From NCBI GenBank assembly GCA_903862655.1, contig CAIOZA010000006.1, positions 48,431 through 112,430 of the forward strand: a stretch of DNA of 64,000 bases, read 5' to 3'. The notes beneath the pieces were generated by a model. It worked only from the letters and a program-made list of their open reading frames with translations, was not told the origin of the DNA and did no database searches. Shown here piece by piece: positions 8,678 to 23,844 of the stretch (its first letter is position 1; every line of letters begins with the position of its first letter). Origin of the DNA: an uncultured Ignavibacteria bacterium. GTDB taxonomy: Bacteria; Bacteroidota; Ignavibacteria; Kapaibacteriales; UBA2268. Position numbers and translations under genes: made by a program.

Positions 8678-10567
8678 TTGGAGATCAACATGAAACGTAA
8701 CTTAATTGCTGTGAGTCTAGTGTTACTGTTTGGGCTAGCCTTGACGTTGCAGCCATTAAAAGCTCAGGTTTATGGCGACTTCGATACAATCAGAATTGTA
8801 TACAACACACCATATGTGGAACTCGGTTCAGACAAAACTGTCATTCCAGTATCTGCGTTTGGACTACCTCCAAACTGGATTCAGGATCTAGATGATGGCT
8901 ATGCATATCCAACGGGTATTGACATTGGGTTTCCTTTTGAATATAATGGTGAAGTTTACAACAAAGTATGGATATGTGTTAATGGATTTATGACATTTAC
9001 ACCACCACCATTCTATCCATCTAAAGAGCCAAAAGGCCTTTTTATTCAGAATGTATCGTATCCCAATAACGTAATCGCACCTTTTTGGGGTGACCACAGA
9101 TTAAGACAAGATGCTGAAAGATTCAACGGCTATATGCCTTCTGAAATTTCTTTCAAGTCAGACGTAGTTAATGGTATTTTTACCGTACAATGGAAAAACT
9201 TAAATGTTAATGATCAGACTGTAAAATCATCAGTTGCTAATTTTCAGGCAAGAATTTATAAGTCAGTTGACCCATATTCAAGTCAGGGCAATATAGAATT
9301 TGCTTATGGCCAAATTGGTGGCAATACTTATGATCCAGGTACTTTAGTTGTTACAAAAAATGCCTCAGTTGGTATTAAAGGTGAATTCTCTGATTTCCTT
9401 AATGGTCTGGAATTCCAAAAAAGTGATAATTCTTATGACATTTTAGTTGCAAGAACTTCACAAAGAGTAACTAACGAATGGACACCATCCGGTGGAAATG
9501 AAAAAAGAATCAAATTCAACGCTTCTATACGCTACAATGTCGAACAATGGTGGGGTGACGGAGATGCTGATATGTCAAAAGGTTTTGGCAATAAGCATTA
9601 TAATTTACCTCAGAATCGTTTCGTAACTGTAAACGATGCAAGAGTTGTAATGCGTTCAATTGCTACAAAAGTGCCACTTGATAGTGTTAGAAAAAGAAAT
9701 GCATTCCACGCTGATGTCAACCATAACGGTAGATACTGGTGGGTTAATCCAAATACATTGCAGGATATTACTTGGAGAGACAAGCTGGAATATCAAAATC
9801 TTCCACCACTTGTTAACTCTTTAAAAAGTATTTTCTACAAAGCAAACGAATATGATGCAGCAATGATGATGCTCTATATGTCAGCTAGAATTCCTGATCT
9901 TCCATGGTTATTGGATACTATTCCCCTTTATGGAAAGATTACAGTTAATGACATTAAAGCATCTGGTCTTAAATTTGGTGCATCACAGAAAATATCCAAT
10001 AATACATTTACATTTCCAGTTTATTTAAACGGATATGCAAATGGACCAATTGGTATTGCTTTTGAACTAAATTCAAATGTGACTGATGTTAAAACTACAA
10101 GCAATGATGTTATAACAGAGTATAACAACGGATCAGTAGTTCTAGCAGGTATAGGCGAATATGATGCTCAGACACCAATTGCTTATGTTACAGTAAATTC
10201 AGCTACAAATGATTTATTAGCAAATAATGTAAAATTTAACGACAGAAAAGCAGAAGATGTAACAATGCTTTTAGCTGGTGTTGAAGATCCTCAGAATCTT
10301 TCAATATCAAATACACCTAATCCATTTACAGTATCTACAGTAATAAGTGCTCAGATTACAAATCCAGGCGTTTATACAGTAAATATCTATGATGCAACAG
10401 GATGTAAAGTTAAAACATTAACATCCGGTGAGCTTAATGCCGGAATAGCTACCTTCGTATGGGATGGCTCAAACGATGCAAATCAGACTGTTCAATCAGG
10501 AATTTATATCTATAGATTGATGGGCGAAAATGTATCGTTCTCAGGTAAAGTTATTTTTAGTAAGTAA
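8678..10567 (+). CDS. T9SS-secreted protein with dockerin-like and cohesin-like segments; start probably ATG at 8690 (MKRNLIAVS)
   Basis: Signal peptide; nidogen-like VWICVNGFMTFTPPPF...IAPFWGD; GDGDADMSKG...FVTVNDARVVMRSIA...HADVNHNGRYWW dockerin-like; TPNPFTVSTVI...GIYIYRLMGENVSFSGKVIFSK sorting domain. Confidence 0.85.
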   Translation: MEINMKRNLIAVSLVLLFGLALTLQPLKAQVYGDFDTIRIVYNTPYVELGSDKTVIPVSAFGLPPNWIQDLDDGYAYPTGIDIGFPFEYNGEVYNKVWICVNGFMTFTPPPFYPSKEPKGLFIQNVSYPNNVIAPFWGDHRLRQDAERFNGYMPSEISFKSDVVNGIFTVQWKNLNVNDQTVKSSVANFQARIYKSVDPYSSQGNIEFAYGQIGGNTYDPGTLVVTKNASVGIKGEFSDFLNGLEFQKSDNSYDILVARTSQRVTNEWTPSGGNEKRIKFNASIRYNVEQWWGDGDADMSKGFGNKHYNLPQNRFVTVNDARVVMRSIATKVPLDSVRKRNAFHADVNHNGRYWWVNPNTLQDITWRDKLEYQNLPPLVNSLKSIFYKANEYDAAMMMLYMSARIPDLPWLLDTIPLYGKITVNDIKASGLKFGASQKISNNTFTFPVYLNGYANGPIGIAFELNSNVTDVKTTSNDVITEYNNGSVVLAGIGEYDAQTPIAYVTVNSATNDLLANNVKFNDRKAEDVTMLLAGVEDPQNLSISNTPNPFTVSTVISAQITNPGVYTVNIYDATGCKVKTLTSGELNAGIATFVWDGSNDANQTVQSGIYIYRLMGENVSFSGKVIFSK

Positions 10568-11750
10568 TCTTATTATCGCTTTCCTCTGGCTGATGCTTAT
10601 ATGCATCAGCCAGAAGGCAAAGGCGGAAGATACGGTTAGAGCAAAAGTAAACAGCTATCAGATAGTCGATCCTTGCGGAGACAAAATTGACCAGGTGTTG
10701 ATAGCATTAGATCTGGGAAAAATTGTTAAAACAGATTCGCTCTTTGGATGTGACTTTCAACTTAGTTATGATACTTCAAGGTTGAAGATGCATTCGGGGT
10801 TGTATATAAACACGCTTTCAGAGTTCTTTGAAGATAAGAATGTTAGTTTTTCAAAAAGCGGAAAAATAACAGGATATGTCGCAGTTGCTAGTTACTTTAG
10901 TCCGCCGGTCTATGGTACTAAACCACTTATGGCATTTCAAGGCAATTATTTGACATCGTGTAAAGATTCAATTGAAATTAAAATTGAATATCTAGAATTT
11001 ACAGATGAATTTAAAAGACCTGTTATTTATCAAAGTGGGTATGTAGTCGCTGAGCCAAATGTTAAGAATGATCTTCATATTAAAGTGTATCCAAAAGTTG
11101 ATACAAGCAGATTTAATATGGATACTTCTGAGATTGAGATATATTTATTGTGCGAACATAAACCAGATTCAGCTTTAAGTAGACTAGAGTTTGATTTAAA
11201 GTTGCAGAAATCAGAAAAATATATCATAAAAAGTGTTGAGCTATTGAGCCTTGATGTTTTAGATGCAGAAGATCTCTATTTTACGAATGATTCTATAATT
11301 GCAAGATTGAATGTAAAAGGAAAAGTAGATAAAATACCTTTAATAAAATTCAGAATTGCTGAAATAAATAGAGACACATCGTTAACATCATTTGAAATCA
11401 ATGTTACAAAAGTAGATGAATGTGCATGCGTCACTAAGAAAATTACTGGTATAGGTTATTTGAAAACTGAAGAAGAGAAACAAGACACTACCGAGGTAGT
11501 AAATCAGTTTTTATCACAAATTCAACAAATGTCATACAATAAATTGACAGATGAATTTTTGATAAGTGCTGAAAAAGAGATTAAAAGCATTGAAATATAC
11601 AGCATTCTTGGCGAAAAGTTGTATGAAAACGCAGAAAATGATAAGAGATTTATAGCAGTGCCTGCATACAAATGGTCAGCAGGATATTACATCGCTATAG
11701 TGGAATTTCTTGACAAGAAAAAAGAACAGAAAATTTTGATAAAAATTTAA
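10530..11750 (+). CDS. Secreted protein with cohesin-like N-terminal segment and T9SS-like C-terminus; 5' end overlaps the upstream gene by 38 nt
   Basis: Signal peptide MYRSQVKLFLVSNLIIAFLWLMLICISQKAKA|ED; GCDFQLSYDTSRLKMHSG... cohesin-like; C-terminal IKSIEIYSILGEKLYEN...GYYIAIVEFLDKKKEQKILIKI. Confidence 0.75.
   Translation: MYRSQVKLFLVSNLIIAFLWLMLICISQKAKAEDTVRAKVNSYQIVDPCGDKIDQVLIALDLGKIVKTDSLFGCDFQLSYDTSRLKMHSGLYINTLSEFFEDKNVSFSKSGKITGYVAVASYFSPPVYGTKPLMAFQGNYLTSCKDSIEIKIEYLEFTDEFKRPVIYQSGYVVAEPNVKNDLHIKVYPKVDTSRFNMDTSEIEIYLLCEHKPDSALSRLEFDLKLQKSEKYIIKSVELLSLDVLDAEDLYFTNDSIIARLNVKGKVDKIPLIKFRIAEINRDTSLTSFEINVTKVDECACVTKKITGIGYLKTEEEKQDTTEVVNQFLSQIQQMSYNKLTDEFLISAEKEIKSIEIYSILGEKLYENAENDKRFIAVPAYKWSAGYYIAIVEFLDKKKEQKILIKI
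10585..10614 (+). promoter_or_regulatory. 12-bp perfect hairpin inside the signal-peptide coding region of the downstream gene and 18 nt after the stop of the upstream gene
   Basis: TCTGGCTGATGC-TTATAT-GCATCAGCCAGA. Confidence 0.6.
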
Positions 11751-22923: not shown

Positions 22924-23844
22924 ATGAATTACAGATTATTAGTTTTATCGATTGTTATCTTCATTAGTACTTACTCTCTTTATTCATCTGAACCTCTAGT
23001 CAGATTCTATCTTCAGGATGGAAGTATTAAATCTTACAATTTAAGCGAAATTGACAGCTTGAATATGATTGACAAAAAGAACAACTACGTTATGCGAATT
23101 CATTATCAGGACACACTTATAGCTTACTATCCAATTGAAATCATCGGAAGTATCAAATTTGAAAAAGACAGCGCAAAACATGACATTCTCAATGTATATA
23201 TCTTTTCATACCCCAAAAGCTATATATTAAGTTCTATCGATAGTGTCATTTTTTATATCGATCCATATCAGCCACTTACAATCGGCTCTCAGGTCTGGAT
23301 GCTGAAGAATCTCAATGTTGATCATTATCGCAATGAGGATTCTATACCTGAAGTAAGAGATTCAGTTACTTGGGCGAATCTTACTGCAGGAGCATGGTGC
23401 TATTATAAGAATGATTCTTCCAATGGCGCTATCTATGGCAAGCTATACAACTGGTATGCAGTTAATGATCCTCGTGGCTTAGCGCCTGTGGGCTGGCGTG
23501 TCCCTAGTGATAATCAATGGACTGAATTAGATAATCATCTTGGTGGTTCTATTTTATCTGGTGGCAAGCTTAAATCCATAGGTACAAAGGAATCTAGTAA
23601 TGGTTTATGGTATAGTCCTAACACAGGTGCAACTAATGAAAGTGGATTTTCTGCTCTCCCTGGCGGTTACCGCGACAACATTGGTTCATTCGGTGCTTTG
23701 GGTATCGGTGGTGGCTTGTGGACTTCTTCTGAGGTGGATTCTAGACAATCCTGGTACAGAGGATTGCACTATAATTATGCCTACTTAGGTAAGTTCGATA
23801 CCATAAAGGAAAATGGTTTTTCAGTCCGTTGTGTCAAAGACTGA
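22924..23844 (+). CDS. Secreted protein with FISUMP (Fibrobacter succinogenes major paralogous) domain
   Basis: GSQVWMLKNLNVDHYRNED...YGKLYNWYAVNDPRGLAPVGWRVPSDNQWTEL...NGFSVRCVKD. Confidence 0.85.
   Translation: MNYRLLVLSIVIFISTYSLYSSEPLVRFYLQDGSIKSYNLSEIDSLNMIDKKNNYVMRIHYQDTLIAYYPIEIIGSIKFEKDSAKHDILNVYIFSYPKSYILSSIDSVIFYIDPYQPLTIGSQVWMLKNLNVDHYRNEDSIPEVRDSVTWANLTAGAWCYYKNDSSNGAIYGKLYNWYAVNDPRGLAPVGWRVPSDNQWTELDNHLGGSILSGGKLKSIGTKESSNGLWYSPNTGATNESGFSALPGGYRDNIGSFGALGIGGGLWTSSEVDSRQSWYRGLHYNYAYLGKFDTIKENGFSVRCVKD

Follow-up and report, generated by a model that had tools for sequence, protein, structure and literature searches.

Predicted split-loop dockerin and cohesin encoded side by side in a conserved T9SS-cargo cluster of Kapabacteria

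Introduction

The cohesin-dockerin pairs known so far come mainly from cellulosomes that degrade plant material. There are precedents both for surface-anchored cohesin-dockerin systems and for dockerins with inserts in their calcium-binding loops. In the ScaA dockerin and the CttA XDoc of Ruminococcus flavefaciens, inserts of 12 and 13 residues interrupt the second Ca loop (PMC5934362). For Candidatus Stygibacter (Cloacimonadota), a cohesin-dockerin complex has been proposed that comprises a large scaffoldin with tandem cohesins, enzyme clients, and a C-terminal domain for surface attachment (PMC8542988). A literature search returned no paper that connects dockerins with Kapabacteria or cohesins with Kapaibacterium.

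Here, we have analyzed a window of DNA (the whole stretch under study, 64,000 nucleotides in length) from a genome that has Candidatus Kapaibacterium MAGs (Bacteroidota, Kapaibacteriaceae) as its closest named relatives; the genome searched comprises 4.07 Mb in 148 contigs. Two neighboring genes, designated P1 and P2, encode a predicted dockerin and a predicted cohesin, respectively. Like ScaA and CttA, P1 has two Ca-loop/helix repeats with a split second loop; unlike in those proteins, both of its loops are split, the insert in loop 2 is much longer (mostly 33-88 residues) and contains a predicted hairpin, and the dockerin is internal rather than C-terminal and is carried by a T9SS cargo of Bacteroidota. 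The first domain of P2 shares the fold of type I and type II cellulosomal cohesins (PF00963), whereas P2 itself is no repeated scaffoldin but a T9SS-anchored protein of 406 residues with a single cohesin (perhaps followed by a degenerate second one) and the cysteines C49 and C144. As in Stygibacter, the cohesin and dockerin are predicted outside Firmicutes and on proteins with a conserved C-terminal domain for surface attachment; in contrast to Stygibacter, they form a fixed pair within a conserved cluster, and no enzyme domain was seen in its five proteins. The modules of P1 and P2 belong to the class of modules outside cellulosomes that is cited in PMC8542988. The modules themselves are already known; the features that appear to be new are the interruption of both loops, the dedicated pairing, and the conservation of a five-gene cluster.

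A conserved five-gene cluster of T9SS cargo proteins

Proteins with a TIGR04183 domain are exported by the T9SS and held at the cell surface by this tail. Five T9SS-cargo genes (P0-P4) form a cluster on the forward strand, in which P1 and P2 occupy the second and third positions. Gene 1, P0 (469-8610; 2713 aa, tail 30.0 bits), combines PMP repeats with a YCF48-like propeller; the repeats are of the Chlamydia type, and many relatives have a shorter P0 without the propeller part (residues ~850-1145). P1 (8678-10567) is a secreted protein of 629 aa when read from the TTG at 8678, the ATG at 8690 being the likelier start. It consists of a NIDO-like N-terminal domain (NIDO matches in 13 of 62 P1 orthologs), a split-loop dockerin, a beta sandwich, and a T9SS type A sorting domain/FlgD_ig at 10313-10555, which was located by domain profile search and scores 32.4 bits against TIGR04183 (cut-off 23). 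P2 (10530-11750) is likewise secreted and has two domains ahead of its T9SS sorting domain (11559-11744), which reaches 23.8 bits against the same cut-off. Genes 4 and 5 encode P3 (11787-14972; 1061 aa, tail 36.1 bits) and P4 (15097-15876; 259 aa, tail 28.2 bits). P3 is conserved across the class, and a domain search found no known domain in it apart from its T9SS tail. A Pfam search of P0-P4 detected no enzyme domain, and PDB sequence searches with intact P1, intact P2, or their profiles retrieved nothing relevant except the FlgD-like tail.

The preliminary description had described P1 and P2 as overlapping genes. Their open reading frames indeed share 38 bp in different frames, but this is not a conserved feature: an overlap is present in 22 of 75 orthologous loci, and in nine of these it amounts to a single base. 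What is conserved is the gene order. As read from ORF and BLAST/HMM positions, about 80 Kapabacteria loci show P0-P1-P2-P3-P4 as far as their contigs extend, and the same order is found, at approximately 30% identity, in three genomes that represent two other families of the class. The P2 open reading frame is absent from five of 80 loci, four of which are contig ends, the fifth (L086) being an ORF-calling miss in a genome that does possess P2. Strong matches to both P1 and P2 occur in 44 of 54 family genomes, and throughout the family the two genes are neighbors; the sole exception is G016, where they fall on separate contigs and P2 borders a contig end. Two order-mates that lack the P1 dockerin also lack P3 and all of P2 beyond its tail, indicating that the unit is gained and lost together; in a third order-mate without this dockerin (G188), P3 lies at a contig edge. 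Elsewhere in the window, a Fib_succ_major domain protein is encoded at 22924-23844 (E 1.5e-43).

A dockerin with both calcium loops split

The predicted dockerin occupies residues 291-413 of P1 (9548-9916) and has the layout W-G-D-G-D-A-D, a 14-residue insert, a VTVND helix, a linker, H-A-D-V-N-H-N-G-R, a 36-residue insert, and an EYDA helix. The first half of Ca loop 1 (DGDAD, residues 294-298; 9557-9571) is separated by its insert (residues 300-313, 9575-9616; 12-17 aa in orthologs) from the position-12 Asp, D320 (9635-9637), which falls within helix 1 (residues 318-330; 9629-9667). The first half of Ca loop 2 (DVNHNGR, residues 346-352; 9713-9733) is followed by an insert with a predicted beta hairpin (residues 355-390; 9740-9847) and by helix 2 (residues 391-401; 9848-9880), which contains the position-12 Asp, D393. 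The second insert measures 33-88 aa in most orthologs and is visibly shorter in L235 and L236, which belong to another family of the class (f14). Both loops have ligands at positions 1, 3, and 5 as well as 12, each with a helix behind it, as in type I dockerins, which consist of two repeats of a 12-residue DxNxDGxxxxxD Ca loop and a helix. The motif is present in all 62 non-redundant P1 orthologs, among which W292, G293, G295, D296, D320, D346, V347, H349, G351, R352, D393, and A394 are invariant or nearly so.

In one subclade, Ca loop 1 no longer has its first Asp, D294 being replaced by F, Y, or M (WGFGD, WGYGD, or WGMGD); the members of this subclade are L101, L103, L106, L108, L109, L111, L113, L115, L119, L122, L124, L125, L136, and L145. 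The same subclade has YQGD or YLAD in place of YHGD in P1 and, along with it, S for G73 in the P2 cohesin; these substitutions may either mark the clade or have occurred in concert.

Pfam gave no dockerin (PF00404) match on intact P1, and weak dockerin matches were obtained for just two of the 62 intact orthologs, which can be attributed to the splitting of both loops. When the inserts were removed, Dockerin_1 became the top Pfam match in four of five orthologs (E 9.5e-4 to 0.07), whereas controls with displaced cuts gave Dockerin_1 in none of the five; for the spliced P1 of the window it was the top match with 19.8 bits (cut-off 22.9). A profile of the spliced domain retrieved cellulosomal dockerins from the PDB (4uyp, 4fl4, 1daq, 2mte, and 5m2s; best E 5e-5), and the mis-cut control profile retrieved none. 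Compared with two Pfam-positive dockerins of the same genome, the spliced profile aligned over both repeats with a probability of 76% (E 2.2e-5), versus 0.6% for the control. Since the mis-cut controls also lose one loop Asp and several other loop residues, they demonstrate the importance of the register without being entirely neutral. When the intact domain was compared with Kapabacterial dockerins by profile-profile methods, the signal was weak. In the AlphaFold model of the dockerin together with the following beta domain (pLDDT 92, pTM 0.88), pLDDT exceeds 90 over the dockerin and a helix follows each Ca loop. The duplicated dockerin loops suggested earlier are thus supported by the conserved motif, the spliced searches, and structure prediction, which places the helices as expected of a dockerin, and P1 is best described as carrying a predicted true dockerin in which each Ca loop is split by an insertion.

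Beta domains of P1 and P2

The preliminary description also placed a cohesin-like domain after the dockerin. A beta sandwich is indeed predicted with high confidence at residues 431-531 (9968-10270), but its identity as a cohesin is ambiguous: in Foldseek searches, a CLIPPER adhesin domain and CBM2 rank beside or above cohesins at similarly weak E-values, and profile comparison with the P2 cohesin revealed no similarity. The term cohesin-like therefore rests, for this domain, on a weak fold match.

The case is clearer for P2, whose start had likewise been described as cohesin-like. An AlphaFold model of residues 32-322 (pLDDT 94) contains two beta domains, the first of which (residues ~36-172; 10635-11045) is the predicted cohesin. 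The best Foldseek match of the model was a type II cohesin dyad (3l8q_D, E 2.5e-12); single cohesins matched with TMt values of 0.72-0.79 at about 3 A, among them 5nrm_A (TMt 0.79, rmsd 2.8 over 151 columns), and the nine-strand cohesin fold was found. Integrin and adhesin Ig-like domains also score against the model, owing to the two-domain arrangement of P2. At the sequence level, P2 of the window obtains 14.5 bits with Pfam Cohesin (PF00963; cut-off 24.1), matches to this family occur in 15 of 73 P2 orthologs (best 2.5e-5), and the protein at the position of P2 in L236, from another family of the class, reaches 47.8 bits (E 2.3e-12) over two stretches. Conserved features of the P2 family include DSLxGFxFxIxYD...NTLSEFF...GxIxGYA...PLIAF and, within the cohesin, C49 and C144. 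Fold and family matches together support the view that P2 begins with a true cohesin and continues with a second beta domain (residues ~183-313; 11076-11468), in which a CxC (298/300) is conserved. The latter is possibly a degenerate second cohesin; profile comparison of the two domains of P2 detected no similarity.

A putative dedicated joint within a surface complex

The explanation toward which we lean, by a modest measure, is that P0-P4 form an ancient five-gene T9SS surface cluster and that the split-loop dockerin of P1 joins the cohesin of P2 one-to-one in a core complex. P1 and P2 would be exported through the T9SS, after which their sorting tails would hold both at the outer membrane. 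Calcium would then fold the P1 dockerin, which would plug into the P2 cohesin, and this joint would help hold the products of P0-P4 together as one core cell-surface complex. Direct binding is inferred from the adjacency of the two genes throughout the class and from their uniqueness: the P1-type dockerin occurs once in this genome, and so does the P2-type cohesin, apart from one weak match. Such numbers point to a dedicated joint, with no set of clients, and not to a scaffold of the cellulosome type that serves many enzymes, for which several cohesins and several dockerin-bearing enzymes would be expected. The surface-assembled scaffold proposed at the outset is accordingly not supported. The conserved unit is larger than the pair and comprises five genes. 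Because these genes are conserved across the group, P1 and P2 are probably dedicated parts of one core surface assembly and not of a machine for degrading cellulose. In addition, the pair lies in a cluster retained across a class of bacteria that lack cellulosome features, which suggests a basic function on the cell surface. Extended to the whole class, the proposal would describe a non-enzymatic surface structure of Kapabacteria, made of five T9SS cargos with one dedicated Ca-dependent cohesin-dockerin joint in which inserts open both dockerin loops; this broader picture is offered tentatively.

If true, the cohesin-dockerin module would be used here as a fixed joint within a core assembly at the outer membrane, and P1 and P2 would offer a compact and testable example of proteins that associate with one another once the T9SS has exported them. 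Pfam-based surveys would also miss a dockerin of this type, in which both Ca loops are split.

Some features count against a P1-P2 joint. Identity among orthologs is 20-28% for P2 and 40-58% for P1, so P2 is evolving much faster than P1, which would be unusual for one side of a tight interface; the loss of the first Asp of loop 1 in one subclade also weighs against it. Mutual information between P1 and P2 (60 pairs) was highest for dockerin residue 344 with cohesin residue 73; as the residue combinations concerned (H/G, Q or L/S, and K/L) are clade markers, covariation could not be separated from phylogeny and was not counted as evidence of binding.

It is also conceivable, though rather improbable, that both domains are correctly assigned and that their partners lie elsewhere, the P2 cohesin taking another dockerin and the P1 dockerin another cohesin, with P1 and P2 being co-transcribed cargo without mutual binding. 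Candidate partners are available, since three cohesin genes and three dockerins in the genome exceed the Pfam cut-offs. A dockerin protein of about 490 aa on contig C93 occurs in 40 of 54 family genomes with one match each; it represents a second core dockerin and a candidate competing partner for the P2 cohesin. However, the adjacency of P1 and P2 has been kept over very large divergence, even between families of the class, which is better accommodated by a dedicated pair.

We attach a similarly low probability to the P1 dockerin being an internal module seated on its own beta sandwich, in the manner of X-modules in XDoc dyads, so that calcium would only stiffen P1 and the P2 domain would be a spacer or adhesin fold. 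The pTM of 0.88 for the two-domain model suggests that the dockerin may pack on its own beta domain as a fixed unit, the inserts in both loops recall those of R. flavefaciens CttA, which act as internal buttresses (PMC5934362), and the fast divergence of P2 would also fit; yet a cohesin in the very next gene would then be left unexplained. Finally, an unrelated Ca-binding domain with a chance resemblance to EF-hand loops would agree with the failure of Pfam on intact P1, the scarcity of weak matches among orthologs, and the weak intact-domain comparison, but it is very unlikely given the invariant motif, the predicted helix behind each loop, and the recovery of Dockerin_1 and PDB dockerins upon removal of the inserts and not in the mis-cut controls.

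Other cohesins and dockerins

Cohesin matches at E <= 0.01 are found in 49 of 54 family genomes. In the genome analyzed here, the further cohesin genes over the Pfam cut-off lie at C39:10138-10449, C27:122255-122800, and C142:102868-103017 (L001-L003, L006), in open reading frames of 1036-1544 aa. The Pfam dockerin of the approximately 490-aa protein is located at C93:41214-41495 (L010) and reads VWPGDANND...DCDGNGE. Open reading frames of approximately 2000-2150 aa with a canonical short dockerin (GDVxxDGxINxxDR...DVTGDGxVNAxDR) are represented by L173, L175, L181, L184, and L185 and are recurrent in family genomes.
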